64,000 nt of DNA, taken from Xanthostigma xanthostigma. Its lineage: Eukaryota; Arthropoda; Insecta; Raphidioptera; Raphidiidae. The notes below the pieces were generated by a model that was not told where the DNA came from, made no database searches, and saw only the letters and a program-made list of their open reading frames with translations. Both the position numbers and the translations under genes were made by a program. The DNA lies in assembly GCA_963575645.1 (NCBI GenBank), contig OY754466.1, forward strand, positions 11,324,001 to 11,388,000, read 5' to 3'. This document shows, piece by piece, positions 1,779 to 57,805 of the stretch (the stretch's first letter is position 1; every line of letters starts with the position of its first letter).

Positions 1779-1953
1779 ATAGAATAGCTGCTTCTTACCA
1801 CAACAGTTTTATTAGCGGATGTACATTTCGGGAGCTATGCTCCCATCTTCAGCAAACACAGTTTAGTGTTAATGTTTGCTGAAGATGAGAGCAGAGCTCC
1901 CGAAATGTACATCCGCCAAAAAGACTGTTGTGGTAAGAAGTAACTATTCTATA
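1779..1953. repeat. snapback element with ribozyme-like motifs (family A)
   Basis: Two arms of about 80 nt (1780-1859 and 1873-1952) are near-perfect inverted copies around a 13-nt spacer. Each arm carries, pointing toward its own outer end, the order CTGAAGA, one base, a 6-bp hairpin stem, GAAA. On the minus strand these are 1852-1846, the stem GGGAGC/GCTCCC at 1844-1830, and GAAA at 1829-1826. On the plus strand CTGAAGA is 1879-1885 and GAAA 1902-1905. The layout resembles a hammerhead-ribozyme core with one extra base. A single-arm copy lies at 54328-54390. Confidence 0.75.
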
Positions 1954-2157
1954 TTTTTTATTGTTATAATATTGTCATTCTGTCTACAAGATAGTTAAAA
2001 ACAGTATCTATAGATACTTAAAAAATTTCTTAGAGACTTTTAAAAATAGAAATATGTCCTTTTAAAAAGCACTAGTGGTCGCCAAGTAGTTGACATTAAA
2101 CCGTAATTGATGTTCTTATATGGATTTCTCCTGAATCGATTTTTCCTGCGTTAATCT

Positions 2158-2364
2158 GTACACATCGTCATGGAACATATACTGTTCCCATCAACTCATT
2201 AATGGTCATTAGTTATTTATTCAGTTATTTTGTTCTTCAGGTAGCTATTCCTCCGAATAAATAGCGATAATTCAATTCAGCAAACATGATTACTTCGAGG
2301 GCATAAATATTTATTTGCCTGATGAAACGAAGAGAACGATATATGTTCCATCACAATGTGTGCG
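2158..2364. mobile_element. short inverted-repeat MITE-like element
   Basis: Arms of about 24 nt containing ATGGAACATATA (2158-2181) and its inverse (2340-2364) bracket roughly 160 bp. The interior shows no coding potential. No target duplication was confirmed, so the superfamily is open. Confidence 0.45.
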
Positions 2365-2566
2365 AATTAATACAGTCAAATCGGTACCACAACTTTTTTT
2401 CCCGTATTTTATATATGATTTCAGGTATTTGAATATACTTTTAAAAAAGTGCCTTAAATATTTCGAAAATATTTTTGATACTTCGGAAGTATCTTCTGAG
2501 ATACCGAACACTTTTGAGCAGTACCTTAGTTACTGAATGCGGATGCGTTCGATAAAGCGTATCTAA

Positions 2567-2985
2567 AGACCGCTGCACACGAGGCTGGATTTGCCGCTAG
2601 ATTTCACCACTAGTTTTCTAGGGCTGGTTTTCTTAACTGCTTTTGGGTGCTCGCTTCACACGAGACGTCTTTTCAAGCTTGCTTTGTGGACAGATCTGGT
2701 GCGCGCGCAGCGACAGTTCAAATATAAACGTATCTGTTGTCTGACTCTGAACAGAATGACGCCATGTTGGTTTGTAGGCGTTTGTTCATGTCTCTCATGT
2801 GACAGGATACTGTTTCTTTATTAGTTCTTGCTCAAAACAAGCACAAGACCTGGCAAGAAAAATAGCCCCTGTTGAAATTTCAAAATCTATCTTGCGAGCT
2901 AGCAGGCGAACGCGTAGTAACGTCATTTCCAGCCTCGTACCCAGCCTGCAAGCCAGCAGAAGTCCAAGCAGTGTTTCCGGCCTAT
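2567..2985. mobile_element. TTAA-type MITE, degenerate copy
   Basis: This is an older relative of the element at 18484-18927. It starts with the same CCGCTGCACACGAGGCTGGA terminus and has the same interior order, but its right end (near 2974-2985) has decayed and the flanking TTAA reads CTAA on the left. Open frames here are shadows of the repeat and not genes. Confidence 0.7.
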
Positions 2986-3683
2986 TATAAATCTAAGATA
3001 CAAAATGTATCTGAGATAGCGCTGCTGACATGTGTAGATTATATTATACAACCGCAACGCGACCACTAATAGACTCTTCTTCATTTGAGTTGCTGGGCAA
3101 AAACCAAAAATACTTCATTATTAACTGTATGCGTTTCATGCAGTTGTGTAAAGATTACTGAAAGAAAGGTAAAATGACAAATTATTCAACAAAATATTAA
3201 ATTGAAAAAAAACGTATCTTTTGACTGTTTAAAAAATGCTTTCTTATTCATTACTTATTTAATTACAAATTCTACTTTGAACAGCAACTTACGCTGTATG
3301 TTAACTTTACATTTTTTTAACAGTTTGAAAATCATAAGTCGACGACCAACAGAATACCACGAATGCAATAAACAGAGGAATAAAAATAGAAAAAAATTAT
3401 AGAGGTCTCTTTTTTAATCATTAAAGCTTTTTTAAGAGCAATTAAATCCGTCAGCTTTCTGTTAAAAGTCAATCCGTATAAAAAAAAATGTCATTACATA
3501 TACGTCCCGTTCTTCCACCACTATACCCGTTACCTACACCACAATCTATCGTCATCTCTTTATTATTTCATTTGTTTTAGCGTTATTTTTTAGGCCGGAC
3601 GAACGTAAATGATAAATTAATCGGCTGATTGAACTATCGGATAGTATTTATGACGATATATAAACTTTAACTAAGTTGACCTA
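2986..3683. other. unassigned AT-rich sequence
   Basis: No gene or clear repeat was seen. A GCCGGACGAA-like patch near 3593 may be a scrap of another MITE family. Confidence 0.35.
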
Positions 3684-3756
3684 AATAAAATCGATCAATT
3701 TTTCAGACAATATATTACGTAACAAAAGTTATACAATTATAATTCAATTGATTAAT
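3684..3756 (-). repeat. 70-bp fragment of ribozyme-motif foldback family C
   Basis: The order AAATAAAAT, CGATCAATTTTTCAGAC and an AT-rich stretch ending near AATTCAAT matches the terminus of the elements at 5673-6053, 34390-34790 and 57680-57805. The copy stops before the ribozyme-like motif, so it shares the same end but is truncated inward. Confidence 0.6.
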
Positions 3757-3896
3757 TAATTGAGCAAAAAAATGCAAAAATATAAAAACTAATTAGTAAT
3801 TATTTTGTAAAAAAACTTTTCAAAAAAAAAGTTGAGATACATTGTAAAACAGGCACTTATGAAAGTGTTCTCAGAAAATTTCAATTACCTTAGGTT

Positions 3897-4475
3897 GTAA
3901 ATATTTCTCCATAATATGAAAAGCATTGTAGAGATTTACACCATTCCTGCACGAAAAATAAGTGATTTCTCAAAACGATATTTTCCTTAAACTGTGCTTA
4001 CATGCATTTAGCATCGTTTTTTATATAGTTTCTACTTTGAAACAACGTTTTTCAACGCATTTTAATCAAAATTTAACTTGAATCGCGATCTTTTCTGTGT
4101 AGAACAATCATTTGTTTTTGAGTGTGTACAATCTACATAGAGATATTAGACTAGAGTGCGCGAGTGAGCCGTAAAAGTGTCTGCAATTCAGATAGAGAAC
4201 AGTTCCTTATCTCTATGGTAACTAATGATACAAAACAATGCTGATTTGAGTAAACCAATATCTGGTTTTCTGGACTTTCCGCAACGTTTTCTCTCTCAAC
4301 TAAAGACACTTACACTTATGGCAAGCATACGAACTAGCGTACTCTAGTATCTTATATCTCTATGGTTCTAGATGACAGTGAGTTTGAATACGAGATTAGA
4401 ATGCTCCTAGTGTATGATCACAATCCAAGGTCATTGTTAAATCAAACTTTCTGGCGATCCTTTCTGTCCCAGGAA
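3897..4475 (-). repeat. dispersed repeat H, copy 1, interrupted by a MITE
   Basis: Read on the minus strand, this matches 49440-50030 block by block: poly-A/AGCATTGTAGAG, a TGTTCTACACAGAAAA block, CAAACTC-CTGTCATC, and GACCTT-GATTGTGATCATA. The two copies act as mutual empty sites. This one carries a MITE (4136-4364) missing from the other, and lacks the 154-bp insertion present at 49806-49959. Confidence 0.7.
4136..4364. mobile_element. MITE with CATAGAGATAT termini
   Basis: The element is 229 bp with inverted termini CATAGAGATAT, each followed by related subterminal blocks (ACTAGAGT-GCG). The matching empty site is visible near 49571-49574 in the other copy of repeat H. The target duplication is not clear, so the superfamily is not assigned. 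No coding capacity. Confidence 0.75.
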
Positions 4476-4875
4476 AAATACAGACAATTATTATTAAGCG
4501 CCAGTTTTTTCATTCATATTATATAGTAATGATAATAAAATAAAGATGCATGATGCGTATATAAAAATGCGCGGTCTTTACGCGTTTCAAAAAACATCAC
4601 CGCTCACCATAACAATTTTATTGCTTCATAAATCAGTTGTAAAACAATCGTAAATTATAATCCAATGATCGCGCGGAAAAATTTATTAGTTTTTGTTTTT
4701 GGAAGCATAAAATGAATATTTGATGCAAGAAAACCGGCCAATTTAAATTTTTGCCGCTATATAATAAAAAAATTTCATTAAGTAAATGTTACAATAACTT
4801 ACTGGCTCAAAATATCTCTCCTTCGATTTTCATCAATTTTTATTTGAACCTTTGGTGTCTTGTGTCCACTCTTTT
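4476..4875. other. unassigned sequence
   Basis: AT-rich, no repeat or coding signal recognised. Confidence 0.35.
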
Positions 4876-5132
4876 ACCCGACTACGGCCAAACCAAAAGG
4901 AAGGTTTAAGTGTTTAGCAGTCATGTATGTTTGTATTTACGGATGTTCCACCGTAGCGCCTTAACTATTCATCCGATTTTGATAAATAAGGTATAAATAA
5001 GGATGGCCGTGGTCGTATGCCATCTCATATATATGAGGCCCCTCTAGATGTACAGCGTGATGAATTTTGCCCTAGAGCTTATGATCGCTTACTAACAATA
5101 TTTTCTTGTTTCATACTTTTTAGTAGTCGGGT
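4876..5132. mobile_element. inverted-repeat element with ACCCGACTAC ends
   Basis: The ends ACCCGACTAC (4876) and GTAGTCGGGT (near 5132) are inverse copies. The interior GTTTAGCAGTCATGTATG and CCGTAGCGCC blocks look familiar from moth genomes, but I cannot name the family. Confidence 0.5.
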
Positions 5133-5672
5133 TTTAGTTTTGAACTTTTCTTTTTTTAAATGTGGTGATGGAATTATCTAATATAATAAATGTAAATATG
5201 CATTGTTCGTCGTAATGTTTTTGAGAGACGTAAGGCAACTATTTTTTAATTTGGTCCGCTTATCGGTTAGCGCTCACAAACCAAACTAAATGATCCACAA
5301 ATATTTTATCGGCCGATTTAACAGTGGGTCGACTAAAAATTGACTGTCACTACTAGGCACTCGCCAAAAAAGTATAGACGAAGTGCGATCTCACTTTTTG
5401 ATTATCTCCTTCTGTCTCCTTTCAATGTCACATGGAAACGGTTGATAAAATTGAAGACAGACTACTGGCTCATCCTTAATTTGCACATAAACTTGGACCG
5501 ATCCATACAAAAAGCAACATTTTGCAGGGTTCATACTCAGGCAGGATTGGTTCGTACGACTCACTATCTTAAAAAAACAAAAAAAAAAATAATGTCAAAA
5601 AACTGTTAATACGTCACAATAATTTTCTTAGATTAAAATTATGAAAAATTTTGGAGTGTTTAATTACTCATC
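5133..5672. other. unassigned sequence with a MITE scrap
   Basis: Bases 5225-5360 (AGCGCTCACA, AACTAAATGAT, GTCGACTAAAAA) resemble 41085-41210, so a decayed shared repeat is likely. The open frame at 5340-5609 has no recognisable content and is not called. Confidence 0.4.
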
Positions 5673-6053
5673 CAAGATTCAAATCTTTGATTAACGTCAG
5701 ATTAGAACTCTTCAATAAATAAAATTATCGACCATATTTTCAGACAAATATATTAACAAAAAAATATAAAAATTAGTACAATGACGTTTCGGTCCATATT
5801 TGGATCTTCTTCAGAAATATGCAATCTAAAAATATAATAAAGAATTAGTACCTATTTTACAATAGAATTAAGACTAAATAATTTAAAAAAATTCAGTTTT
5901 AATTCTATTGTAAAATAAGTAGATACTAATTAATTTTTATATTTTTAGATTGCATATTTCTGAAGAAGGTCCAAATCCGGACCGAAACGTCATTGTATTA
6001 ATTTTTACATTTTTGGTAATATATTTGTCTGAAAAATTGGTCGATAATTTTAT
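5673..6053. repeat. ribozyme-motif foldback family C, full copy 1
   Basis: Arms of about 150 nt mirror each other. Each runs outward as CTGAAGA, A, a GGTCC/GGACC stem, GAAA, CGTCATTG, an AT-rich stretch, TTTGTCTGAAAAAT. Plus-strand motif: CTGAAGA 5960-5966, GAAA 5984-5987. Minus-strand motif: 5814-5808 and 5790-5787. A 9-bp direct repeat TTACTCATC flanks the unit (5664-5672 and 6054-6062), probably the target duplication. The resemblance to hammerhead cores and Penelope-like termini is inference. Confidence 0.75.
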
Positions 6054-6062
6054 TTACTCATC

Positions 6063-6419
6063 TATAAGACTTCGAGTTGGCACTGAATATCTCCAACTTG
6101 TATTTTAATAAAAATATTCAAAATACTAAAATATCGTTATCAAACGAGCATCTAAAAATTAACAATCAACAGGCCATTAAAAAGAAGAAAACAATGTTAT
6201 GATTGGTTGTCATAAAATTCTAATTATTTTTATATTCATAAAATATATACACTACCCGGCCATATTGTTAGACGCAAAGTTTTGTTAATACGTTTCAGTC
6301 GCATGAATCCAATTAACTTTACCGTGCGCAAAAATAGTTCACTTCAAAAAACGCGTATGTGTAGTGTGTACCCTTTATGCGTGGTTGAAGAACTTATCGA
6401 TAAAACTCAAAATTTGTCC
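6063..6419. other. unassigned sequence
   Basis: No gene or RNA recognised. Bases after 6250 lead into a Helitron scrap. Confidence 0.35.
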
Positions 6420-6520
6420 GTCCGACAAAAACTGTTGAACAGTAAATCCGATCACCATGAAATTTGGACACAACATTCATCTCGGTAAACTAAGATGAAC
6501 GTGCGTCCTTCATGACGTAA
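6420..6520 (+). repeat. Helitron fragment
   Basis: The blocks GAACAGTAAATCCGATCA, GAAATTTGGACACAACATTC and CTCGGTAAACTAAGATGAA match the inner 3' half of the Helitron at 42118-42739 (reverse strand there). The terminal hairpin and CTAG end are missing. Confidence 0.65.
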
Positions 6521-6783
6521 TTATCTTGTACGGATATTTATTTTAATTTTATGATGTTAATTTTACTAATTATACTTAAAAAGTAATTAAACATCTTATG
6601 CTAGTGATTACCGTAAAAAATAATTCTTTTTTAATTATTATCCATTTCAATGGACATAGGATTTTCCAAAATTCTGTAAATGTTAAATTTTTCACTGAAT
6701 ATAGCTTAATTACTTACACCCTAAATAAGCCCAACACCTTAAAAATACTTTTTGTTACAAAAATATAAAATTCAGGTCCGAAG
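6521..6783. other. unassigned AT-rich sequence
   Basis: Nothing recognised. Confidence 0.35.
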
Positions 6784-14830: not shown

Positions 14831-16128
14831 TTAGTAAAATATTTCTTTTACAACAAAAAGAAGAACGTTATAAGCAGTGTGCAAAATTAGAAACGAATTG
14901 AATACCTGCAATCATATTTAAAAAATAATTTTGTAAAGTGATAATTATTATACTTATTTAGTGCGAATAATTCGCACAGGTCACGCTAGTATTTATATAT
15001 TGAATACAGTTAAAAATGACCTGATTTTTTAATCGTGTCTATTGACACTTATCTACAGTTTACACTCATATTGCAATTGAAAGCGTACACGTATAAATAA
15101 AATCTGAACAGTGATTTTCAGTTTATGATGGGGGTTTGAAAGCGGCAATTGAACTGGGGGACCGATCCCCCTATTCAAATATGTTATTGTTCAAACGTGG
15201 GCCACGTGTGCATTGAATTTCTAAATTTGACAGCAGTGTGACTATGTTCAGAGAAGTGGGTGTTTGCAATACATGCATTTTTCTCTTTCTCTCGTGCACC
15301 AAAAATAAAGAGAGAACTATATACACTAGACATTATTAATTAGACTAATCACCATATTCACCGAACACTATTAAAGATAGAGGTTAATAACTTCGTTAGA
15401 ATAAAATTTACTTTCAATTCACCAAGCAAAATATCAGGTTGAAAAGTTAGTGAAAGAATAAATGTACACTGCACTATACTCCATGCTCTATTTGTTGAAT
15501 ATTTTGACGTTCACCCAAAAATCCAACCAATGGCGTTAGTGTAGACGTCAAAAATAAATCACAAAATAATAATGTTAAATCTTAACCCAATTGCACACTA
15601 AAATTCCTCTAACTTTAATGTTTTACAACTATGTACACTTCACAAAAGGTTAATAATCAATACATAAATAAATTCATAACAGCAAACACTAGATATAATA
15701 CTCCACGTTTATAGGTTAGGTATTATGATCTATAAGGCGGCCATTATTATTTTATTAAGAAAATAAATATTTATACCTTCGAAGTAAGACAGCATTGATT
15801 TATGCCTGCAATAAATATAATTATGGTTGGTGAATTAAATTATCGTTATTTATTCGGAGGAATAGTTACCTGAAAAACAAATGAACCGAATAAGCGAGCG
15901 AAGCGAGTAGACCCCAACATTAACGTGAATTGACGAGCGAATTGAACGAAAACACTGACTATATACCGCCTTCTCATCACACGACGGCCGTTTCGCTGTT
16001 TTGCTCTTTTGCATGGTTGACGTTTAGTATTCGCTGTGTGCAACAACAAAGTCGCGACATCTAGCGCCATTGTCCGACAAACCCACTGCCACTTTAATAT
16101 ATTATGTAAAAAGTGAATTAAAATTAAT
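14831..16128. other. unassigned sequence
   Basis: A GTGCGAA/TTCGCAC palindrome lies at 14961-14977. A minus-strand frame of 129 codons (15846-16235) starts inside the neighbouring MITE, is rich in arginine, and has no motif I recognise. I do not call it a gene. Confidence 0.3.
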
Positions 16129-17861: not shown

Positions 17862-18215
17862 ATGTTTAATACAGTTCTGGACAAAATTAAGGTACCAATC
17901 GATTTTTCTGTTATCTTTGTTAATATTCAAGGCGCCATTGGACTTGGAAGCATATTTTGTGTTCTGAAATCATCAGGTGATCGTGAACGAGTAAGTCTGG
18001 AGAAAGATTTGCTGCCTGCGATATATATCCACAATGGAACCATCGATGTGGGTCGAGAATATTCTCGAAAAGAATTTGGTTCATCAATCTGTCGAGATAT
18101 TAAAGACATCGAGTCTTTCTCCAGGTCTTCGCCAAGACGTTTCACAATAACGTTGACAAGCTTTTCAATTTTCTTCAGAATTTTATTGAAAACTTTCAAC
18201 CTTAATTTATCATGA
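17862..18215. other. region open on both strands, origin unknown
   Basis: A 117-codon plus frame (17862-18215) and a 90-codon minus frame (17927-18199) overlap here. Base composition is more even than the surroundings. The minus product starts with a lysine-rich amphipathic stretch (KVFNKILKKIEKLVNVIVKR). I recognise neither. It could be a decayed transposon exon. Confidence 0.25.
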
Positions 18216-20039: not shown

Positions 20040-20118
20040 TTGTGGATAAAAGTTAGATTTATTAGTGTACAAAGGTTTCGTCTATAGATTTAGACCTTTT
20101 CAAGTACAATATGAAAAT
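20040..20118 (-). repeat. ribozyme-like motif, degenerate
   Basis: On the minus strand, CTTGAAAAGGTCTA, a GTCT/AGAC stem and GAAAC (20079-20075) follow the layout seen in families A-C, but the CTGAAGA part is altered. A self-complementary GTAC lies just beyond. Confidence 0.4.
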
Positions 20119-27330: not shown

Positions 27331-27816
27331 ATAATATATTTACATTCGCATAAAAGCGTACACAACGAATAATTGAGAACGTCTTTTTTTGAAGTCGGTA
27401 AAAAACAGAAGTTTAACTTTCTGCATAAAAAGTAGATCTTTCTCACTTTTAATCGCGTCCTTTCTATGTTTTATTAGATTATGCAAATATAAACTGTAAA
27501 ATGTTAATGTCGCCATTACAATTCCGTGAATTGATGGTTTTCTGTCATTTTATAGTGTCGTACTCGTACACTATGTGAACTCAAGCCAGGTTTTATAACA
27601 GTTACATATATAGGTATGATATATTATGTAAATGTAAATATTGCAAGAAATTTTAGGTCGCTAACGTTGTCTGTACTCTGTATCGAAGGAGAGTGCATTA
27701 AAGCTCGCTGCCCATTACGTTATTAATGAGAGTCTGTTTCCGCTACCAGCGATTTCGCAAGTAATTATAAAGCTTTTTCTCGTTGCAGTTTAATTTTGCA
27801 AATATAATACCTATAT
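27331..27816. other. unassigned sequence
   Basis: Nothing recognised. Confidence 0.35.
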
Positions 27817-28035
27817 CTTCAGTATAAAGTAGTGTTGATCCAATAGAATGTTAAGATGAAGGAAGGTTTTGATTGAGGATCATAAAATAAGGTTTACCAA
27901 TGTTTCGCTAGTGGCCAGCGTTTCGAAAAATTTATTTTCATCTTCAGGGCCTCAAGTTGGTCAAGTGATGGTAAATTGTTCTAACAGTATAAATGATCAT
28001 AATTATTATGAGTTATAGTATAATTTTAAACAACT

Positions 28036-28251
28036 TATTATAAAAAATTAATTAAAAAATTTATTCAATTTTATAAAACTGTCAAGAGGTGAAAAAATTA
28101 AAATATTTATCTAAGAATTAAATATAACCAAATTTGAGAACTTTCTGTGTACTTTAATTTGATACTGTATCCAGAAAGTTCTCAAATTTAGTTATATTGA
28201 CATTATAGTGACAGTTTTATAAAATTGAATAAATTTTTTTATTAATTTTTA
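28036..28251. repeat. nested 215-bp foldback
   Basis: Arms pair AAAATTTATTCAATTTTATAAAACTGTCA with its inverse, and AAATTTGAGAACTTTCTG with its inverse, around a 20-nt loop. It lies just inside the left end of the 3.8-kb foldback. Confidence 0.8.
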
Positions 28252-29035
28252 GGCGCGAATAGCGTAAGCTAAAGCGCCTATATGTACTCGCTTTGTCTGT
28301 GAATCTGTGAATCTGTGAATCTGTATGTCACGCTTTTTTGTGGATTGTGTACAGCTCAAACGCCTTAACCGATTTTAAAAAACTTTTTTTTGTTCGATTC
28401 GTCTCCGGGTAACTTAGATCCTAACGTCGCCCGATTTTTGAATTTTTGCTCCAGAGGGGAGCAATTTAGAAAAAACGAAGTTTTTCGCTTATAACTCGCT
28501 CAATTTAAATCAGATCGGTTCGAAACCTGTCTTAAACGAAAGAGGAGAAAATTTTACATAAATTTCGTACAACAGAATTTGCCCAATTAGTTTTTTTATA
28601 CACATTTATATAGAAATAAATTCAATCTGATATAACCGATGGCAAACATCTTTCGGTTATCTCTCTCTGTTGCACGGTTTAACATGGCAATTTAAAAATT
28701 ACGTATGTTCTGTCTTCAAATAAAATTGGTCGATAATATTATTTATTACAATAATGAAATTAAAAGATAGCATTTGTTCAAAAACGGATGCCGTTTCGAA
28801 TATTTGTAAAATGCAACGCCTTCTGGGTTAACAATTTGAATAACTAATTATTAGAACATAATACTGTGACAGATGCAAACGTCACTTTTGACATTTCTTA
28901 CTATTCCGACACCACGGACGAGCGGATTGAAACCAAATTTTGGGAGGATGTTTGATATGCAAATATGAAGTGGCCTATTGTTTTTTGGGAACATCGGCAC
29001 ATGCGTAAAAGAATATATCTCTTATAATGTTGTTT
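28252..29035. repeat. scraps of the GTGATAACGT element and others
   Basis: Bases 28490-28620 match 12080-12245 (CGCTCAATTTAAATCAGATC, AACGAAAGAGGAGAA). Bases 28880-28960 match 12480-12540 (CGTCACTTTTGACATTTCTT, GCGGATTGAAACCAAATTTT). A 25-bp piece of the family C terminus (AAAATTGGTCGATAAT) sits at 28727-28752. A GGCGC/GCGCC hairpin begins the segment. Confidence 0.6.
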
Positions 29036-29039
29036 TATA

Positions 29040-31345
29040 TAATAATAATTGGGGAATTATAAAACGGTCGAATAAAAAAAAAACTTGGTGATGAGATACT
29101 GTTTTAATAACTTGAATATTAAAATAACAGTTGTGTGACTAAATTAATAAGTGAGCGACTAAATTACTAAGTGAGCGACTGAATTACTAAGTGAGCGACA
29201 AGAATGCCTTCGGTAATTTTGAAGCAAATATCTTCAACCGATTGAGATGAAAATTTGTATACACGTTAAGTTTGGATAACAATGCATGGTTAGCTATGTG
29301 ACGTCACTCTAAATCCAATATGGCGAACTTCTAAATATGGCGGACTAATTTTATTATGCTTTCCTACAATATGGGTATCAAATGAAAGGGCTTGCTGAGA
29401 ATAACTCGAAAAATAAAGTGACGTCACTCTAAATCCAATATGGCGGACTTCTAAAAATGGCGTACTAATTTTATTATGCTTTCCTACAATATGGGTATCA
29501 AATGAAAGGGCTTGCTGAGAATAACTCGAAAAATAAAGTGACGTTACTCTAAATCCAATATGGCAGACTTCTAATGATGGCGGACTAAGTTTTTTATGCT
29601 TTCCTACAATATGGGTATCAAATGAAAGGGCTTGCTGTAAATAACTCGAAACATAAAGTGACGTCACTCTAAATCCAATATGGCGGACTTCTAAAGATGG
29701 CGGACTAATTTGATTATGCTTTCCTACAATATGGGTATCAAATGAAAGGGCTTGCTGTAAATAACTCGAAAAATAAAGTGACGTCACTGAAATCCAATAT
29801 GGCGGACTTCTAAAGATGGCGGACTAATATTATTATGCTTTCCTACAATATGGGTATCAAATGAAAGGGCTTGCTGAGAATAACTCGAAAAATAAAGTAC
29901 GTAACTCTGAATCCAACATGGCGTACTTCTAAAGATGGCAGACTAAGTTTTTTATGCTTTCCTACAATATAGGTATCAAATGAAAGGGCTTACTGAAAAT
30001 AAGTCGAAAAATAAAGTGACGTACTCTAAATCCAATATGGCGGATTTCTAAAAATGGCGGACTAATTTTATTATGCTTTCCTACAATATGGGTATCAAAT
30101 GAAAGGGCTTGCTGAGAATAACTCGAAAAATAAAGTGACATCACTCTAAATCCAATATGGCGGACTTCTAAAGATGGCGGACTAAGTTTATTATGCTTTC
30201 CTACAATATGGGTATCAAATGGGCTTGCTGAGAGTAACTCGAAAAATAAAGTGACGTCAGTCTAAATCTAATATGGCGGATTTCTAATGATGGTGGACTA
30301 AGTTTTTTATGCTTTCCTACAATATAAGTATCAAATGAAAGGGCTTGCTGAGAATAACTCGAAACATAAAGTGACGTCACTCTAAATCCAATATGGCGGA
30401 CTTCTAAAGATGGCGGACTAATTTTATTTTGCTTTCCTACAATATGGGTATCAAATGAAAGGGCTTGCTGAAAATACCTCGAAAAATAAAGTGACATCAC
30501 TCGAAATCCAATATGGCGGATTTCTAAAGATGGCGGACTAAGTTTATTATGCTTTCCTACAATATAAGTATCAAATGAAAGGGCTTGCTGAGAATAACTC
30601 GAAAAATAAAGTGACGTCACTCTAAAACCAATATGACGAAATTCTAAAGATGGCGGACTAAGTTTTTTATGCTTTCCTACAATATGGGTATCAAATGAAA
30701 GGGCTTGCTGTAAATAACTCGAAAAATAAAGTGAGGTCACTCTAAATCCAATATGGCGGACTTCTAAAGATGGCGGACTAATTTTATTATGCTTTCCTAC
30801 AATATGGGTATCAAATGAAAGGGCTTGCTGAGAATAACTCGAAAAATAAAGTGACGTCACTCTGAATCCAATGTGGCGGACTTCTAAAATGGCGGACTAA
30901 TTTTATTTTGCTTTCCTTCAATATGGGTATCAAATGAAAGGGCTTGCTGAAAATACCTCGAAAAATAAAGTGACATCACTCTAAATCCAATATGGCGGAT
31001 TTCTAAAGATGGCGGACTAAGTTTTTTATGCTTTCCTACAATATGGGTATCAAATGAAAGGGCTTGCTGAGAATAACTCGAAAGATAAAGTGACGTTACT
31101 CTAAATTCAATATGGCGGACTAAGCTTTTTTTGATAAAGGGGTATGCGAATTGTCTCGCAGTGAAACGCGATGGGGCAGAGGTGGAGTTTTTAAAAAAAT
31201 AATTTCGGGGTTAACGATAAACGGGTATGCGAATTGTAATTCCGGGGTGAACGATAAAGGGGTATGCGAATTGTCTCTCAGTGAAACGGGAAGCGGCAAA
31301 TGTGGAGTTTTAAAAAAAAAAAATCCGGGCTGAACGATAAATATA
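29040..31345 (+). repeat. minisatellite-carrying repeat, copy with expanded array
   Basis: Left flank 29040-29240 (AAAACGGTCGAAT, three GTGAGCGACT units, GCCTTCGGTAATTTTGAAGC) and right flank 31131-31345 (GATAAAGGGGTATGCGAATT twice, GGAGTTTTTAAAAAA) match the compact reverse copy at 23760-24125. Between them is the 120-bp array. Confidence 0.75.
29287..31125. repeat. 120-bp tandem array, about 15 units
   Basis: Each unit has GTGACGTCACTCTAAATCCA, ATATGGCGGACTTCTAAA, GATGGCGGACTAA, TTATGCTTTCCTACAATATG and GGTATCAAATGAAAGGGCTT. Unit starts fall at about 29298, 29418, 29538, 29658, 29778, 29897 and so on, with occasional 1-5-bp losses. The palindrome TGACGTCA opens most units. The 165- and 219-codon minus frames across it are only open because 120 is divisible by three; repeats of TSLYFSSYSQQALSFDTHI are not a real protein. 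Confidence 0.95.
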
Positions 31346-31630
31346 CACCAATTTTCAAACAAAACACCAGGGTATATGATGTAAAATTTCGCGCCTTGTA
31401 ATTCTTGAATTACTTGGGCATATACTCCCACTGGTTTATTATAAGATGTTTAAAACTATACTAACTCATAATAATTATGATCATGTATACCTACTGTTAC
31501 AACAATTTACCATCACTTGACCAGCTTGAGGTCCTGAAGATGAAAATAAATTTTTCGAAACGTTGGCCACTAGCGAAACATTGGTAAAGCTTATTTTATG
31601 ATCCTCTATCAAAACCTTCCTTCATCATAA

Positions 31631-31867
31631 TACTTATAATTTTTAAATCTTATATTATTTTAAACTATTATTTAAAACTTGAAGATCGTTCGGTTATCGG
31701 AAGAATCTTCGCTTCCTATTGTCGAGCGGCTTCACTGCATTAAAGTCTTGTCTCGCGGAACTATGCCCCGCCCGCCATCAACAACAGTTCCTTCGACTCT
31801 ACCGTATTATAAGTGATAACAGTTAACCAAGCCTGACATGCAGTAAATACTATGTTATTCTTTTAAA
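31631..31867. other. unassigned sequence
   Basis: Nothing recognised. Confidence 0.35.
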
Positions 31868-34389: not shown

Positions 34390-34790
34390 AAATCTTTGAT
34401 TAACGTCTGATAATCTTCAATAAATGAAATTATAGACCAATTTTTTTCAGACTATATATTGACAAAAAAATAATAAAATTATAAATCAATATTTCACTAG
34501 ATGACGTTTTGATCCGGGTTTGAACTTCTTCAGAAATAATCTAAAAAGAAAAAAATATTTAGCATATATCTACTTATATTTTCTAATTGAATGGAGTTAG
34601 AATTATTCAAACTCCATTTTATTAGAAAATATAAGTAGATATAATATACTAATTAATTTTTATATTTTTTAGATTATTTCTGAAGAAGAACCAAACCCGG
34701 ATCAAAACGTCATCTAGTACAATATTGATAAATAATTTTATTATTTTTTTGTCGATATACAGCTTGAAAAAAATTGGTCGATAATTTTAA
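34390..34790. repeat. ribozyme-motif foldback family C, full copy 2
   Basis: Same architecture as 5673-6053. Plus-strand CTGAAGA at 34680-34686; minus-strand copy at 34533-34527. Here the conserved GAAA has become AAAA (34704-34707) and the stem is weaker, so this copy looks inactivated. The outer edge again reads GGTCGATAATTTTA. Confidence 0.75.
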
Positions 34791-35626
34791 CTATTAACTA
34801 TTGCCTTTGTTGCTTTCTGCTTGATCGGTTCAAGAAGTTTCACTTTTAAAAATGAACTGTAACCAAAAACTAAAAATGAATGCTCAAATGTTGAGTTTTT
34901 TACGCGTTTTTTGTGATAGAAAGTAATTGAAATTGAGAAATATTTGCGGGAAAAGATATTAAAAATATTTTTATTAAATATTTTAATAACGCAGCCACTA
35001 ATTAAAATTCGTATTTGAAAATATACATATAAACAACGTGAAATAAGTTATTTTTGCGTTCATTACAAAATTCAATAGCACAGCAGATGTTTTATTCTGA
35101 AATTCCGCAATTATTTGAATAACAGAAAAAGTTTATGTAGTTGCACTGCTTGAAACTTTTTAGCAGTTTTGATCACCAGACGATCTCGCATACAGTTAAT
35201 TAAATTTAAAGCTTAACTTTGCTTCAAAAACAACTTAACAGAAACTTAAGCCGCTTGTGTTGGAATCCAAGTCAATGGCTCTATACACATGTGTAATGTG
35301 TTTCTAAGAAATTCGCATTTCTTGAAGATTACACTTAATGACTAAAATACGAGAAAGTAAGATGAGTTTTACTTGAAAATAAATACAAGAAGTGCTTTAT
35401 TATACAGGTGATTCTAATTTCGTATCTATCAATAGATCATAGATACCCGAGAGCATAACGTACAGGATTTCGATCTCTGCAGGTGTTGACCGTCTATAAT
35501 GTCAAATCTCTCTCTCTCTCCGATAAACTTTTTTGTAAGAACGATTAATAATTCAAAATCTCAGAATATAAAAACATAATTGTTAGTAGAAGTTTTGTTC
35601 CAAAAAACTGTATTGAAGGAGATTTA
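34791..35626. other. unassigned sequence
   Basis: A short TC run lies at 35506-35519. No gene recognised. Confidence 0.35.
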
Positions 35627-39340: not shown

Positions 39341-39901
39341 ATCTTAAAAAAAAAAACTTCGGAGAAGTAAAAACTTCGTTCTGTGCTAAATTCAAAAACT
39401 TGAGGCGACTGAATCTCAGAATTATAACTTAAAAAAAAAAGAATTTCGAGGCAGACAAGAAATTGAAATCAAGCTCGAAATTCTGTGCCTAAGACGTCGA
39501 AAAAAAAATGAATTTCGAGGCAGACAAGGAATTGAAATCCAACTTCGAAATTCTGTGCTTATAAAAGCTACAAGAGCAACAGCAAAAAAAAGTGCACAGA
39601 CGGCGTTTTTTTAGTGGTAACTAAAGGAGCTATGCGAACACCGTCTTTGCATTTTTTTTGCTGTTACTCTTGTAGCTTTTATAAGCACAGAATTTCGAAG
39701 TTGGATTTCAATTCCTTGTCTGCCTCGAAATTCATTTTTTTTTCGACGTCTTAGGCACAGAATTTCGAGCTTGATTTCAATTTCTTGTCTGCCTCGAAAT
39801 TCTTTTTTTTTTAAGTTATAATTCTGAGATTCAGTCGCCTCAAGTTTTTGAATTTAGCACAGAACGAAGTTTTTACTTCTCCGAAGTTTTTTTTTTAAGA
39901 T
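39341..39901. repeat. 561-bp near-perfect palindrome
   Basis: The left arm (39341-39612) and right arm (about 39641-39901) are almost identical inverted copies around a spacer of about 30-40 nt. Each arm contains two related units, GAATTTCGAGGCAGACAAG...GAAATTGAAATC and its variant ending CTTCGAAATTCTGTGC, each able to form a small hairpin. Differences between the arms are limited to poly-A length and a handful of bases, so the structure is recent or kept homogeneous by conversion. No coding content. Confidence 0.93.
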
Positions 39902-44200: not shown

Positions 44201-44870
44201 CGCGAATATAGAATATCTCGGCAATATATTTTGTCAGTGTAACAATTGGCCCTACGTTGGGCGCCAATTTTATAATGTTTTCTTTGGCCAGGTTTTAATT
44301 TATATTTTGTTACGCAGCGGGTAGGGAAATTAACAGTGACAATTTAGTGAAACAAGTCGGCAAAAAACAGGCATCAAGTCATGCCTTCTTGGTATACGCT
44401 GCTTAAGCCGTTTAAGATAAATGCATACAATATACGTAAGATTTGTTGGTGTAACAATTGGCCCCACGTTGGGCGCCAATTTTACATGTTAGATATATTT
44501 ACATTTACATTTTATATTTTGTTACGCTATGGCAATTAACAGTGACAATTTAGTGAAACAAGTCGGCAAAAAACAGACACCGAGTCGAGCCTTCTTGGTA
44601 CACGTCACATAAACCGTTTAAGATAAATTAATACAATGTATGGAAGATTTGTTGGTGTGACAATTAGCCCCACGTTGGGCGCCACAAATAACACACGTTA
44701 TTTGGTCAGGTTTTAGTCTACATTTTGTTATTATGGAAGATTTGTCGATGTGACAATTGGCCCCACGTTGGGCACTATAAATAACACATGTTGTTTGATC
44801 ATGTTTTGGTATTTTGTTATGCCAGAGAATTAGCAGTAACAACTTTACAGAAGCACGTCCACAAAAAACA
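44201..44870 (-). repeat. tandem array of LTR-retroelement primer-binding-site units
   Basis: Four units start at about 44241, 44453, 44659 and 44752 (spacings 212, 206 and 93 bp). Each holds an 18-nt stretch close to GCCCCACGTTGGGCGCCA; the second unit (44461-44478) is exact. On the minus strand this is the primer-binding site complementary to the 3' end of tRNA-Lys1,2, and it directly follows an LTR-edge-like TAAAAT. Shared leader blocks include CAGTGACAATTTAGTGAAAC and AAGTCGGCAAAAAACAG. The minus frame 44618-44842 is an artefact. Confidence 0.75.
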
Positions 44871-49439: not shown

Positions 49440-50030
49440 ATACCTTTGCAGAAAGGATTGTCAAAATAATTTGACTTGACAATGACCTTAGATTGTGATC
49501 ATATAATAATTACAGTTTTCATATATCAGGAACAGTCTAATGTCGTATTCAAACTCTCTGTCATCCAGAACATTAGATTGTACTCACACAAAAACAAATT
49601 ATTGTTCTACACAGAAAAAAATCGCTTCTCAAGCTAAATTTTTATCAAATTGCGTAAAAAAACGTTACTTCGAAGTGGAAACTGTACAAAAAAAAACTGA
49701 ACTGAATGAATACACAGTTTAGTAAAAATATCGCTTCCTTCGATCAATTATTTTTCGAGCAGGATCGATTAGAAACTCTACAATGCTTTTTATTTTGAGA
49801 AATATCTTCAGTATATAGTAGTGTTGATCCAATAGAATGCCACGATGAAAAAAGTTTTGGTTGAGGTCCTGAAGATGAAAATACATTTTTCGAAAAGTTG
49901 GCCACTAGCTTAACATTGATAAAGTTTATTTCTGATCCTCAACCAAACCTTCCTTCAATGAGAAATATGTATGTTCACAATATAAGATCATTGTCAAATC
50001 AGATTTTCTGACAATGCTTTCTGCAACTGA
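49440..50030 (+). repeat. dispersed repeat H, copy 2, with a 154-bp insertion
   Basis: Plus-strand counterpart of 3897-4475. It lacks the MITE found there and carries family B at 49806-49959. The frame 49540-49722 crosses the repeat and is not called. Confidence 0.7.
49797..49968 (+). repeat. compact ribozyme-motif element (family B) with 9-bp duplication
   Basis: Element 49806-49959 is flanked by GAGAAATAT (49797-49805 and 49960-49968). The unoccupied GAGAAATAT is seen once in repeat H copy 1 (3901-3909, reverse). Inside: an outer stem GGTTGAGG/CCTCAACC, CTGAAGA 49869-49875, a GAAAA/TTTTTC stem and GAAA 49892-49895. A hammerhead-like three-way fold can be drawn with the outer stem as stem I; the third stem would be short. 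Confidence 0.8.
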
Positions 50031-52285: not shown

Positions 52286-53290
52286 TACCTAGATATATAC
52301 AAGCCATTGACACTAGAATTATACGCAAGGGTAACTTAAATAGGATTATTATGTTATTTACTCAGTTAAGACCACCAATTCTGTTCCTGTATTGACAATG
52401 TCAACGATATTAAAGGTCTTTGTTTTATTCCCATCGTACTAATACAATGTACACACATTATTTGTAGTAGGAAAGTTCGAGAGAGTCGTGAGCAAATATA
52501 TTTTTACGTGATGCTATTTAACCTCGTTAAAAGTACGTTTTCACGTGATAGTAAAAGTCCTGACTTTTGTCGTGTGATAACTTTTGGTAATGTTTTCGAA
52601 TAATTTAATGTTTTGACAATAAACATGACGCCACGTGAAGTAGTTTTAATAGATGTCCGTGTTGGCGAAATTATAAAGTTTGAAAACAAATCTATCTCTA
52701 TATATACAGTACCTATATGTAAACACGTAAGGTGCACATAGGGAAATTAGCAATGGGAAAAAATACTTGGATCAGAGTTAGCCATGACTGCATTAATTGT
52801 TATTTCTATTGAATTATGGTGGTACTCTTGAGGATTTCTATTTTAATTTGATTTATTTTTATTTTACTTGTTTTTTTTAATAATAAAAAGCTTTTATAAA
52901 TCATTATTCTATTTTTTTTGTACAAAAATAATACAAAAAAACAAGTCCATCTGTTTGGAAACATTTCATTCAAAAATTGTCTGACTGGTATGACGTATGT
53001 GTGTTGGTAAATTAGTGACCCAATGTCTTTAGGTTCTATACGAATAGGCGGAGATATTTGATTTCGCACCATATTTAAGTATTTTTGGGAATTTAATGTC
53101 CCATTAATAAAAAAGTCCGATTATGTTGTAATCATTTGAATATTTTCTTCGGTAGTAGGTATACACATTCATTTTGCAAAAGAATATTATCTGTCAAATT
53201 GAAAAACAAGATTTCAAGGCTCAGTCTGATCCAGTCATTTTTCCCAATGTTAATTTCCTTATGTGCACCTTACGTGTTTACATACTGTAT
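52286..53290. other. unassigned sequence
   Basis: No gene recognised. Several short frames overlap but none has a motif I know. Confidence 0.35.
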
Positions 53291-53500
53291 ATTAAAATCT
53301 CGTGTCACAGTGTTTGTTATCAAACTCCTCCGAAACGGCTTGACCGATTTTTATGAACTTTTTGTGTATACTTGTTAGGTCTGAGAATAGGTCGTAGGCT
53401 ATTTTTTATACCCCTAGGTGACAAGGGTAGCCCCCTCCAGAATTTTTTTTATTTATTTTTTGAACAAAAATTTATTATTATTTTTTTATGATCTGCCATT
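53291..53500 (+). repeat. retroelement/Helitron-like segment
   Basis: TTAAAATCTCGTGTCACAGT, AACGGCTTGACCGATTTTTA and GGTCGTAGGCTATTTTTTAT occur in the order I recall for insect Helitron 5' regions. No terminus found. Confidence 0.45.
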
Positions 53501-54301
53501 AAAAAATACTTATAGCCCTAAATTTTCACCGTTCTACCACCAACCCCTATTTTAAATGACGATATTAGTATTTTTCTAAATTTGAAATGAATGACTTACT
53601 TTTACCTAAAATATTCGTTTTGAGAAGAACATTCAGTAAGCGAAAAAGCTCGATTTTGAACCTTAAAGCCCCTTTGTAGGGCCCCTAAAAAGGTCTAAAA
53701 GGGTTCAGAGTTGAATATATCATAATTTTAATTCGGTTACTTAATATTATCTTAAATACTTTTTTCGGGATGAAATACTGCTCATGCCTGTATAACTACT
53801 GTAATTTTATGATCGCAATTTAAAGTCATTGTCAACTCTATTTTTTTGACAATAATTTCTGTAATAGCTATCATAAATATATAAGTAGAAACAAACATAT
53901 TTTTACCCGAATAAATTTTTCATTTATGAAGCTTGTTTTGTAATTTTTGGTAGTATATTCGAGTTTTAATATTTTCGTATCTCATTTTTAATTAAAAATG
54001 TTTGAGAAAGTTGATACATTTTGTCAATAATTGATAATATGTACATTAAATATATAATATATTCAGTTATTTGCTTTATATACTCAACGGGGAAAAACCA
54101 ATTAGAGAACAGAGCACACTGAAAAGGTAGAATAATAACAAATGATGAAGTAAGGTATAACATACAATATGTAAGTAAACAGGGAAACTAATTTTGTGGT
54201 CACATGGCACATTGGCTTATGTCAATTTTTTGACAAAATACAGGAAATGCAAATTTTATTCTCCAGTACACCTACTTATCAAATTGCACGAAATACAAAA
54301 A
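53501..54301. other. unassigned sequence
   Basis: Nothing recognised. Confidence 0.35.
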
Positions 54302-54400
54302 AAAAAAAAAAAAAACTCGGGTCGCAGTGTTTGCTGAAGATGAGAGCATAGCTCCCGAAATGTACATCCGCTAATAAAACTGTTGTGTAACTATTCTATA
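54302..54400 (+). repeat. junction of repeat Q start and ribozyme-motif family A arm
   Basis: Poly-A and ACTCGGGTCGCAGTG (start of repeat Q) run directly into TTTGCTGAAGATGAGAGCAT-AGCTCCCGAAA, one arm of the 1779-1953 element, followed by ACATCCGCTAATAAAACTGT. CTGAAGA 54334-54340, GAAA 54357-54360. Confidence 0.75.
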
Positions 54401-54585
54401 TTTATTATTTTTGATAGAAGGAGTTCGCGTACAATGAATACGAATGGGCGTGTCGAGAAAATTTCTTCCTACACTACTCTAACAGCCAACCAATCGGCTC
54501 TTCATTTGTAACTCGTTCCCCCCACTTCGGACGGTGTCGTTTTTCGTTACGCTGTTTAAATGGTTTCGTGTGAAAAAGGCACAAT

Positions 54586-55032
54586 ATAGTGTAAACTCTA
54601 TTTAACATCACTCGATATAACGACAAACTCCTTAAAACGTCGAAATTACTTAACTCTAGTTGGTTTACCTTGTTGCTTATACAATGATACACTCTAAATA
54701 ACGACAGCGATACGTCATCATTAAGCAATAAACAGCACTTGTTTGTTATTTGTCTGAAAAATTAGTCGGTAAATTTTTTTATTGTTTGTTATTTTGTTGC
54801 TTTGTTGTCGGCATCATGCGTACCGAAGATTCTAAGAAATTCGAATTTTTGTTTGTTTGAGATAGTATGAATGTTTGTTGGTCAGTTGTAAATTCTATAT
54901 ATTATGAGTAAATACATGTTATAGTAAAAAAATATTTTGGATTATTTCTTCTCTCCGTTTAACGACAACTCTCAATAACGCCACAAAGTGCGCAGTCCCT
55001 TGAGTGTCGCTATATATAGAGTTTACACTGTA
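54586..55032 (+). mobile_element. pogo-like MITE, copy 2, full length
   Basis: Element 54588-55030 has ends TAGTGTAAACTCTATTTAAC and (inverse) CAGTGTAAACTCTATATATA with TA on both sides. ACGACAAACTCC and GTCGTTAAACGG-type blocks recur. It is the unoccupied counterpart of the hAT site at 40158 and carries a 30-bp insertion at 54752-54781. Confidence 0.88.
54739..54794 (+). repeat. 30-bp insertion with 13-bp target duplication
   Basis: TTGTTTGTTATTT (54739-54751) is repeated at 54782-54794 around 30 bp reading GTCTGAAAAATTAGTCGGTA then AATTTTTTTA. That is the terminus of family C. Copy 1 of the host element (near 40600) has TTGTTTGTTATTT once, with no insert. Confidence 0.88.
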
Positions 55033-55507
55033 TTTAACTTGTTCTGTTGGATTGTTTAATTTCGAGCAGACCACTAAATCACGCGCAATTCAATTATCCC
55101 GTTTCTCAAAAAACACCAAGTATGTGAGCATTTGACGTGATCCCTTTAGCCCGGTACACCTGCATTAATATTCTACTCGGCTAACGACGTACTTTGCATT
55201 GACTGACGTCCCCAAGCCTTCTACCTATAAATGTATGTATGCAGCACAGTGTGATCCGTAAATCCACAGAGAATACGCCAAACTTAATACAGGAAATTGG
55301 TTCCCCATAATCCTTTATTAATTGTACACTGCAGTCATGCCCTACGTAATTGTATTGTCAAGAAGAAAATGTGCATAATTACATAAATAACTAATGTCTA
55401 CACTAAACTTTACAGAACGTGGTTCTCCTTAACTCTTTAATAAATACTAAATACGTTGAGGTTAATAATATTGCTAGAAACTAAAATATACGTTAGCTAA
55501 TTTTACT
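55033..55507. other. unassigned sequence
   Basis: Nothing recognised. Confidence 0.35.
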
Positions 55508-55992
55508 ATTCCAACCCACAAGTGGGGAATGGTACTACTTTAGGTCAAAAATCACTTTTCAAAAATTTTACAATATCTTTCCGTTTTGAGGTCCCTCGAA
55601 TCCAAAAAACATATTTTTGGAAATACTCTGTGCGTCTGTTAGTCTGTTTGTCTGTCAGTCTGTGAACACGATACAGGTCAAACGGATGAGCGGATTGAAA
55701 CGCAGAAGAGATATACGAGTATATGCTATAACGGTGTTTTTTATATAATAATGGTATACTTTTCATAACAGCTTATTATTCTATTTATTTTTTCAAGAAA
55801 GTTTAGTTAAAAAAATTTTTTTCTTAACTTTATAGTTTCGGAAATATTTTGAAAATAAAAAATCAGCTACTCTTTTGTTTTATGGAACTGTCAGAAATAA
55901 ACTAGTTCGGCATGCTTTGATTAATTTTCACATGACGTGGAACATATTATGTAGGTAACCATGGCAACGAATAGCAAATATCATATTGAATA
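55508..55992 (+). repeat. dispersed repeat P, copy 2
   Basis: As 31868-32335, with the hairpin ACCCACAAGTGGGGAATGGT region at the start and AATAGCAAATATCATATTGA at the end. About 60 bp near 55700 are missing relative to copy 1. Confidence 0.75.
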
Positions 55993-56040
55993 CTAGCCAT
56001 TACCCGCATCACCTCACGCGATATTTTATTTTCTTTATTA
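55993..56040 (-). mobile_element. Helitron 3' terminus, reverse
   Basis: On the minus strand: TATCGCGTGAGGTGATGCGG, GTAATGGCTAG, then T. It directly abuts repeat P, as does the related end at 62125-62182. Confidence 0.65.
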
Positions 56041-57679
56041 TAATCAAATGTCAACATTTTTTAAGTTGGAATGGTCCCGTCACCCAATTGGCTGGAATTT
56101 TTTTATTATTTCATTGCATCTATTTCAAGGAAAATATAAAAAGCGTTACTGGATAATGCATTGTATATTGTTAAAGAATTTTTAGATAACTTTAAATAAT
56201 TTTATTAATACTTATGGACGCTATTGTGGAAATTTACGTGCCATAAGGGCCTTTGTTAACGACCGTTTTAGTCAACGGGTAACGGGCCGACGCAAAACGG
56301 TTACCTTTGTACACGATTCGCATATACCTACGTGAGCGCGTCCATTGTTATCGATATCAGTTCTATACTTGAAGGGCGAAGAAGTGCAAATACGTAATGT
56401 CTTGCTTGTTTATTTTTGTTATTTTCTAAAGTTTTGTCCCAACACTGGCCTATTATGAACAAGGCTAATTAATAAATCCATATCAATATCAATTTTAAAC
56501 TCTATAATCCATATTCACAATGAGCAGAACAAGGTAGATATAGGTACAGTGACTTCACTGTAGATATAGGTAAAAACGTGCGCATAAATTTAAAAAAAAA
56601 TTTTAACGGAACTTTATTCTTTCAAGTGTTAAGATGACTATTGAAATTTTTAGATTGTTATTTAATACTATAAAAAAATTATTTTATGTGTTGTACTCTC
56701 TCAACAAGGCGTTGCGCTCGGAACCCTATTTTCAAGGTTAAATTAAAACTATAAATAATAGAAATAGAGTTCCGGAAGTGGGACTTTTTTATTTGAAATT
56801 TTCTCCTCTTTAAGAATCCTTTTTTTCTATTTCCGCAATCACTTATAGTTTTTGAGTAGTTTCCAAAATTCTGAGGCTTTTTTTTCTTTTCCTTTTTGTT
56901 TATAACAAATGCAATTTTTGTCGGCGAAAAAAATAAAAAAAAAACGTCTTTTTCGGAATATTTTTCCGAACGAATATATTTTTTGAATACTTGGATCCAT
57001 TTTTGTCATGAAAATTAATTATTGACTAGGCTAACTATTGAATTCAGTTTATAACATTTATAAATTAATTATATATCAAATGTTAGTAATTCGTGTACAA
57101 CTGCATAATATATAAATATATTTCTGCTGTATGTAAACAAGCAATGAAACCGAAAAACATTAAAATAAATAAATAATAAAACCTTATGCGTTACTTTGAT
57201 CCAAACGATACAAAAAGACTATAAAATAACGCTAATGTCCTCAGTTGTAGAACGTCTGTAATCTAGAATATTTCTCTATCCCACTCATATTCAATATTTA
57301 AAAATCATCTAAACAAACGTTTGTTTTTTACGTTCTCCTTTTTATGAGAACGTCATTAGTCATTATTATTATTTTGCATCAATTAGTACCAACACGACCC
57401 CGTATATTTTTTGTTCACTAAAAAGTTTTAATTACAAATATTATGCAACTGTAAAAACAAGAAAAATATAAAATCGTACTCAATGTAAAACTGCTTAATT
57501 AATTTTGAAGCTGCTACAAATTTCAATTTTCCTGGAAGCGTCATTTTGATTATTTGATTAACGTTTGAAGTAATATTCATTTTGCATGCTTTATTTATAA
57601 AGTGTAAGTAAACACTATACGTAGAATGAAAAAAACATACAAGATATAGGTACAAATTATGTGTTCACTACTTAAATCA
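56041..57679. other. unassigned sequence
   Basis: No gene recognised. Bases 56740-56960 (GTTCCGGAAGTGGGACTT and a poly-T/A interior) resemble parts of the 57913-58615 foldback. Confidence 0.35.
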
Positions 57680-57805
57680 TGTTTTCAAATAAATAAAATT
57701 ATCGACCAATTTTTTCAGACTGTATATTGACAACAAATTATAAAATTATAATTCAATATCTCAATAAATGACGTTTTGGTCCGGATTTGGACCTTCTTCT
57801 GTGGA
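57680..57805 (-). repeat. ribozyme-motif family C, half copy
   Basis: AAATAAAATTATCGACCAATTT... to CCTTCTTCTG (57800) is one arm of the 5673-6053 element. The motif on the minus strand reads CAGAAGA, A, GGTCC/GGACC, AAAA, so CTGA and GAAA are each altered by one base. Confidence 0.7.

Follow-up and report, generated by a model that had tools for sequence, protein, structure and literature searches.

The window analysed here is a stretch of 64,000 nucleotides from Xanthostigma xanthostigma (contig OY754466.1, positions 11,324,001 to 11,388,000), in which short inverted repeats, the "snapbacks" of an initial annotation made from the letters alone, carry a recurring motif that had been likened to the core of hammerhead ribozymes. 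The window has no reading frame that combines a reverse transcriptase (RT) with a GIY-YIG domain and, outside a satellite array, no open frame of at least 150 amino acids; what it contains are short, mostly decayed products of Penelope-like insertion and not autonomous elements (Table 1). We propose, with a probability of roughly nine in ten, that the motifs represent minimal hammerhead ribozymes of type I within the pseudo-terminal repeats (pLTRs) of Penelope-like elements, left here in decayed insertion products, and that they would serve to cleave the element RNA.

The recurrence of the motif can be confirmed. The window holds 6 matches to the pattern CTGAAGA-N16-GAAA where 0.08 would be expected, and 4 to CTGANGA-N12-24-GAAAC where 0.25 would be, and for neither did any of 100 shuffled sequences hold as many. 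At 10 of the 12 places named in the initial annotation CTGAAGA is present and followed by one base, a hairpin and GAAA or AAAA. The first five pairs of this hairpin, stem II, are all formed in five of the ten (1852, 5960, 27947, 31534 and 49869); a single A·C mismatch is found at 1879, 5814 and 54334, two mismatches at 34533 and one at 34680, with AAAA replacing GAAA at the latter two. The description of every place as CTGAAGA, or one change from it, with a stem and GAAA does not extend to the remaining two: the sequence at 20105 is TTGAAAA, with positions 3 and 8 both changed, and near 57800 a damaged core (CAGAAGA) is likewise combined with AAAA.

In the fold, C3UGANGA9 is followed by an extra A or T (position 9.1) and by stem II; after GAA come a stem III that is short and self-complementary, then H17 and finally stem I. 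Stem I is the part which had been missed, the initial annotation having recognised core and stem II only. Between GAA and H17, 21 of 23 family representatives have a stretch, A15.1 to U16.1, that is complementary to itself. It is mostly ACGT, the others being ATGTACAT, ACATATGT, ACTAGT, ACATGT and ACGTGTACATGT (with a G·U), and ACGATCGT in another copy of family F8. An intramolecular stem III is not formed, because ACGU leaves no loop, and in this loop-less stem III the motif agrees with published minimal variants. The hammerhead core (C3U4G5A6N7G8A9, G12A13A14, A15.1–U16.1, H17) is present in the family representatives and in the window copy at 31534; as the representatives were found by their core letters, the independent parts of this comparison are A15.1–U16.1 and H17 only.

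Stem I is written in different letters in different families, for example GGCC/GGCC (F2), GCAA/TTGC (F5), GACT/AGTC (F6), GACC/GGTC (F6b), AGAT/ATCT (F11), GCCA/TGGC (F16) and TATAT/ATATA (F9). Counted in contiguous pairs, stem I reaches a total of 73 in 22 representatives, compared to 20.0±5.2 with swapped arms, and none of 20,000 permutations reached this total. The pair 1.1–2.1 is formed in all 22 and at least three contiguous pairs in 17 of them, whereas sliding one strand by −3 to +5 bases yields totals of 6–28. Only F17 and the canonical hammerhead locus L182 are left out of this scoring, in which the cut of F8 was placed by analogy with L161. A first scoring had been confined to 17 of 24 representatives, omitting the canonical L182, the redundant F6b, F6c, F10 and F18a and, for want of a readable palindrome, F8 and F17, and had taken the better F18 copy of the two; when each group is given a single row (18) and F18 its poorer copy, the total is 55 against 15.6±4.3, again with 0 of 20,000 permutations.

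The initial annotation had read the varying stems between constant flanks as the signature of a selected RNA fold, and covariation bears this out. Among 16 representatives, all from outside the window, stem II is paired in 96.8% and stem I in 85.9% of the cells; in the same alignment 91.3% of all cells are paired against 53.9% in shuffled ones, and changes on both sides are seen in 52 cells, where the shuffled ones have 16. Covariation scores 0.951; shuffled alignments give 0.211±0.045 (0 of 500 as high) and slid partners 0.08–0.17. The number of pairs changed on both sides, 7 of 8, is not above that of the shuffles (179 of 500).

A covariance model, R1, was built from 16 representatives with an ACGT stem III, all from outside the window; F4, F7, F8, F12, F16, F17, F20 and L182 were left out. 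With this custom model the covariance search that had been proposed is successful, as 8 of the 12 places are found at E <0.02 and five of these at E 7e-11 to 8e-6 (Table 1). The three weakest matches have a stem III of 8 instead of 4 nucleotides and belong to F4, a family outside R1. A site not named in the initial annotation, 18141-18186, reaches E 0.073 with letters that form no clean stem. We take it for a chance match, so that the E of about 0.09 at 20105, no better than that of this site, is weak evidence, although by eye a stem I GTACA/TGTAC can be drawn there. A full descriptor, which demands the core, stem II, H17, a stem III complementary to itself and a stem I of one pair or more, is found at three window sites, with 1 (5960), 4 (31534) and 2 (1852) stem I pairs, and at none in 40 Markov-1 sequences of 64 kb.

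Terminal repeats of Penelope-like elements had been suggested as carriers, and the same ribozyme is in fact found beside RT and GIY-YIG frames of this genome. The genome searched is the source of the window (623 Mb, 28 contigs); 150 of 521 GIY-YIG candidates were scored and 30 loci fetched. RT and GIY-YIG domains in one frame, as in Penelope-like elements, are present in L205, an F4 locus (605 amino acids, open at the locus edge; RVT_1 1.8e-11, GIY-YIG 1.1e-5), and in L199, an F12 locus (578 amino acids; RVT_1 3.6e-11, GIY-YIG 1e-5), while in L195 the two domains are split over two overlapping frames. With the L205 frame as query, no match was obtained among PDB sequences. A scan for viral contigs yielded at least 120 stretches, on which none of the conclusions here draw. 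R1 matches (E ≤ 0.5) occur in 25 of the 30 loci, in 23 of these 25 on the strand of the frame and then mostly a few hundred bases downstream of it; in L212 the R1 match is on the opposite strand only, yet a separate reading finds a copy on the same strand. Seen in these loci are F4, F5, F9, F12, F13 and the group with U3 and A8 exchanged in the core. The F4 loci share their type of stem II and stem III with the window copies at 1852, 1879 and 54334. The copy 1826..1852, which has a poor stem I and the stem II and III type of the RT and GIY-YIG loci L201–L218, is predicted to be cut after AUC. Hammerheads in Penelope-like terminal repeats, as first read, are thus supported.

In the whole genome CTGAAGA…CGAAACG is found at 14,860 exact places against 8 for the reversed pattern, CTGATGA…CGAAAC at 2,905 against 151, and the class with T at 3 and A at 8 (U3/A8) at 5,724 against 300; the three patterns together have about 23,000 exact places against about 460 reversed. 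F1 is, by eye, the commonest family among the matches listed for CTGAAGA…CGAAACG. The extra base after CTGAAGA had been regarded as a departure from the textbook core. It is present, but it is conserved in this group, only 265 of the 14,860 copies having C or G instead of A or T; in 11 of 23 representatives it is A. Going by a title of De la Peña and Flores from 2001, an extra base is also said to occur in the core of a viroid hammerhead.

In hammerheads positions 3 and 8 pair, and the exchange of C3–G8 for U3–A8 is known in nature (PMC3088659). Both forms are found here, C3/G8 in 14,860 copies (with N7 = A only) and U3/A8 as the exchanged class, and the single changes U3/G8 and C3/A8 amount to 1,096 (control 81) and 689 (control 84); the copies are related and these counts are not independent events, the exchange being seen on two or three types of stem II among the sequences read. 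The exchanged class was first met in the GIY-YIG loci L190, L191 and L194, and in L193 with a further change. For the same compensated pair the accessible part of Perreault et al. 2011 (PMC3088659) gives "several" natural examples, whereas here it is of high copy number and resides in the three GIY-YIG loci first named.

A conserved fold may also be a relic, selected in an ancestral Penelope and now unused, so that the copies spread without cleaving. We consider this rather unlikely. It would agree with the anole Penelope, whose ribozyme-dead form still inserts in vitro and whose RNA is uncut without protein, as reported in the accessible part of that study (PMC11167929), with the poor stem I of F1 and with copies in which G12 is changed to A on both arms, as in the window pair 34533/34680 and the listed genome pair C1:3231744/3231830. 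Against it, pairing is kept across families with different stem letters, and the copies with G12 changed to A are a minority of 661 (control 28) beside 14,860 intact ones; in the listed cases C1:4373738 and C1:6439887 the partner arm is intact. The core letters are no evidence in this question, since the copies were found by them. The idea that the G12-to-A copies (34533/34680, 57799) form an amplified, ribozyme-dead subfamily was set aside as less likely, decay fitting most of them.

The arrangement of the copies in pairs is equally informative on their origin: the snapbacks are head-to-head insertions of Penelope-like terminal repeats. Among adjacent ribozymes at most 600 bp apart, taken from the first 100 places listed for CTGAAGA…CGAAACG and for the U3/A8 pattern each, 27 of 30 pairs are ordered minus-then-plus and none plus-then-minus. 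Neighbouring GIY-YIG matches within 6 kb, picked by eye from the listed places as those with a near neighbour and a few without, follow the same order in 21 of 26 cases, the rest being tandem and none plus-then-minus. Arm ends fall at either of two positions, which are separated by about 35 bp, and of 21 head-to-head pairs from six families 19 have this tail of about 35 bp on one arm only and none has it on both. For this test, which replaced a looser alignment of arm ends that over-extended in AT-rich DNA, tail probes were taken from long arms and each arm was scored only against the probes of other loci; two pairs that are split over two loci each (L206/L207 and L215/L216) were joined by coordinates, and L030, with arms 800 bp apart and a borderline right arm, may be two insertions. 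Within the window the one-arm tail is clear in three pairs and weak in the fourth. Element A scores 22 of 34 on the left arm (13 shuffled) and 9 on the right (15 shuffled), Element C 17 of 34 on the left (14 shuffled) and 10 on the right; the left arm of Element E is, by eye, trimmed to the outer end and the tail. Of 15 pairs tested, 10 lie between direct repeats of 8–13 bp. One of the ten is Element B, with the 9-bp target duplication TTACTCATC at 5664-5672 and 6054-6062.

Non-coding inverted repeats, some of them with flanking direct repeats, would also be expected of a DNA-level element, in which the motif would be a hairpin bound by protein, placed in the inverted repeats of a MITE-like (miniature inverted-repeat transposable element) DNA transposon and its likeness to hammerheads a convergence of letters. 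This is very improbable, as a stem I formed across the core, the exchange of C3–G8 for U3–A8 and a self-complementary stem III are specific to hammerheads, the motif is also found in loci with RT and GIY-YIG frames, and arm ends about 35 bp apart fit two starts of reverse transcription.

On the hammerhead and Penelope reading we suggest that replication proceeds as follows. The element RNA would form the hammerhead fold, the missing stem III being completed either by two RNA copies that pair ACGU with ACGU or by the element protein, and would be cut after H17 (GUH). The element protein would then nick AT-rich DNA and start reverse transcription on both strands, at two sites close to each other, and the outcome would be two 5′-truncated complementary DNAs (cDNAs) joined head to head, one of them tailed, which would be the snapback. 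How the two arms come to face each other could be different: Arkhipova et al. 2013 (PMC3846280), in the part accessible, proposed self-priming on an antisense RNA template, which is compatible with our explanation of the motifs and would replace only the extension of both nicked strands. This is a possible route, although not the one we favour. The junction palindromes and the head-to-head order described there agree with it, as does a palindrome centre within or beside the core in several of our copies (L013, L152, L156); on the other side, the anole element cuts and extends both strands in vitro (PMC11167929, accessible part), and one tailed and one untailed arm fit two separate starts.

As a more speculative proposal, the ribozyme may be deliberately weakened, with A or U at 9.1 and a loop-less stem III, and depend on a second RNA copy or the element protein, one large class, U3–A8, still spreading. 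We regard this as unlikely. If it were true, the ribozyme would act as a sensor, with cleavage restricted to element RNA that is in tandem or bound by protein, and the rule of one tail (19 of 21, none with two) would mark different RT start sites for each DNA strand. In the anole element two internal RT start sites account for the tail, according to the accessible part of the report, and the two strands are alike in their start site (PMC11167929); the anole assay therefore leaves the one-tail rule found here unexplained.

Several observations weigh against the proposed ribozymes and their assignment to Penelope-like elements. Most window copies are damaged and several are mutated at single essential hammerhead positions; the copy at 31534 alone passes the full descriptor with at least three stem I pairs. 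When the Rfam hammerhead models were run as proposed, the window had no match at the gathering score and none with the limit raised to E = 10, and of 12 loci tested L182 alone was matched, in its canonical copies; Rfam microRNA matches in the 12 loci were below their gathering scores and taken for long inverted repeats. F17 has neither a self-complementary stem III nor a readable cleavage site and was dropped. Stem I has a single adjacent pair in F1 and F7 and two in F4, F18a and F19, and with arms of 16 nucleotides the best duplex exceeds the swapped median in only 12 of 18 families, while the sum of these duplexes is equalled by 1 of 20,000 permutations. As to the carriers, 5 of the 30 GIY-YIG loci have no R1 match (L192, L193, L197, L204 and L208; L193 reaches E 0.36 in a smaller search), the ribozyme of L190 lies on the strand opposite to the frame, L201–L218 belong mainly to one family (F4, E 0.056) and some of the 30 loci overlap, and F1, F2 and F3 are tied to Penelope by the shared ribozyme and the insertion anatomy only. 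Of the head-to-head pairs, two of 21 have no tail (L162, L172) and two more are borderline, namely the weak tail of window 34533 and the tail-less arm of L030. Flanking repeats measure 0–7 bp in 5 of 15 pairs, including Elements A and D; for Element A a target duplication is not above chance, and the 7 bp of Element D are equalled in 6 of 60 controls. In a read-through transcript of head-to-head copies the sense part could pair with the antisense part and mask the core, and the anole ribozyme is described as cutting only with its protein (PMC11167929).

Thousands of dispersed copies of minimal type I hammerheads that lack a proper helix III, with a dimer mechanism suggested for them, have been described before in Penelope pLTRs (PMC7761336, PMC7229834, PMC6155905). 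The motifs of the window resemble the minimal pLTR hammerheads of Cervera & de la Peña 2014 and Lünse et al. 2017 in the type I order, the diminished stem III and the thousands of dispersed copies known from metazoans, for which dimer action was suggested (PMC7761336, PMC7229834). As the insertion geometry is published too, our results are a confirmation rather than a new system. In the accessible part of Arkhipova et al. 2013 (PMC3846280), Penelope of Adineta vaga has head-to-head inverted pLTRs with a 31-bp tail on one of them, palindromic junctions, target duplications of 8–10 bp and unrelated DNA between solo pLTRs, and the word ribozyme is absent from that part of the text. The satellite of Element D may be compared to such intervening DNA: between the inverted F2 arms lies an array of 15.3 copies of 120 bp (29298-31121). 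With the Poseidon/Penelope element PAc of Anolis (Frangieh et al. 2024, PMC11167929, accessible part) F2, F3 and F4 share the reading CTGAAGATG. Unlike in PAc, an ATG frame starting at T9.1 is not general here: it ends after 4–26 codons in all 7 T9.1 loci read, so that T at 9.1 was rejected as a frame start, and with A at 9.1, as in 11 of the 23 representatives, there is no ATG.

Canonical type I hammerheads are known from animal retrozymes (PMC7229834, accessible part), and L182 carries such canonical copies, whereas the window families have no stem III loop and no Rfam score. The L182 copies (1200-1560) lack the 9.1 base, lie one per strand, point outward and reach 35.7 bits with Rfam Hammerhead_1 (gathering 34). 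The outward pair is a hint that retrozyme-like repeats of this genome are inserted by the same route as Penelope.

The Rfam models miss the ribozymes in the window and in the tested loci despite about 23,000 places in the genome. The set offers many natural families with differing stems, an exchanged core pair and an insertion signature that can be counted, and it could help to test the role of the ribozyme in Penelope mobility, which in the accessible part of a review is "still a mystery" (PMC7761336).

Table 1. Penelope-like insertions and predicted hammerhead cores in the window, with the matches of covariance model R1
Feature	Position	Strand	R1 match (E)	Remarks
Element A	1719..1967, ends approximate			head-to-head Penelope terminal-repeat fragments (F4), left arm tailed; placed by inverted repeat I10 and arm extents
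F4 hammerhead core and stem II	1826..1852	minus	1820-1854 (0.28)	stem III ATGTACAT
F4 hammerhead core	1879..1905	plus	1877-1911 (3.3)	stem II with one A·C mismatch
Element B	5673..6053			head-to-head F1 pair, left arm tailed
F1 hammerhead core	5787..5814	minus	5775-5822 (8e-6)	one stem II mismatch
F1 hammerhead core	5960..5987	plus	5952-5999 (2e-7)	intact stem II; weak stem I with 1 adjacent pair
Hammerhead-like core, U3/A8 class (TTGAAAA)	20075..20105	minus	20063-20111 (0.094)	stem II GTCTA/TAGAC
Element D	27815..31631, ends approximate			F2 arms in inverted order with 3.5 kb between them, left arm tailed; I2
F2 hammerhead core	27921..27947	minus	27909-27955 (1e-9)	U16.1 changed (GAAACGC)
F2 hammerhead core	31534..31560	plus	31526-31572 (7e-11)	stem I of 4 pairs, one G·U
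Element C	34412..34802		34672-34719 (0.003); 34495-34541 (0.005)	head-to-head F1 pair (I5); both cores G12 to A (AAAA)
Element E	49800..49960	plus (core)	49861-49907 (8e-8)	F2 copy; core 49869-49895, C15.2 changed
F4 copy	54334..54390	plus	54332-54366 (1.2)	core 54334-54360, one stem II mismatch
Decayed F1 copy	57770..57799	minus	57770-57799 (0.016)	core CAGAAGA, G12 to A

Three further repeats of the window stand apart from these copies. At 39347-39896 there is an inverted repeat of 245 bp whose arms are 100% complementary around a centre of 60 bases, with no R1 match up to E 10. The region 51350-51422 matches the Rfam tRNA model with 33.3 bits (gathering 29) and is not called by ARAGORN; it is perhaps a tRNA-derived repeat. 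Finally, overlapping tandem repeats of 206 and 93 bp are found at 44230-44807.

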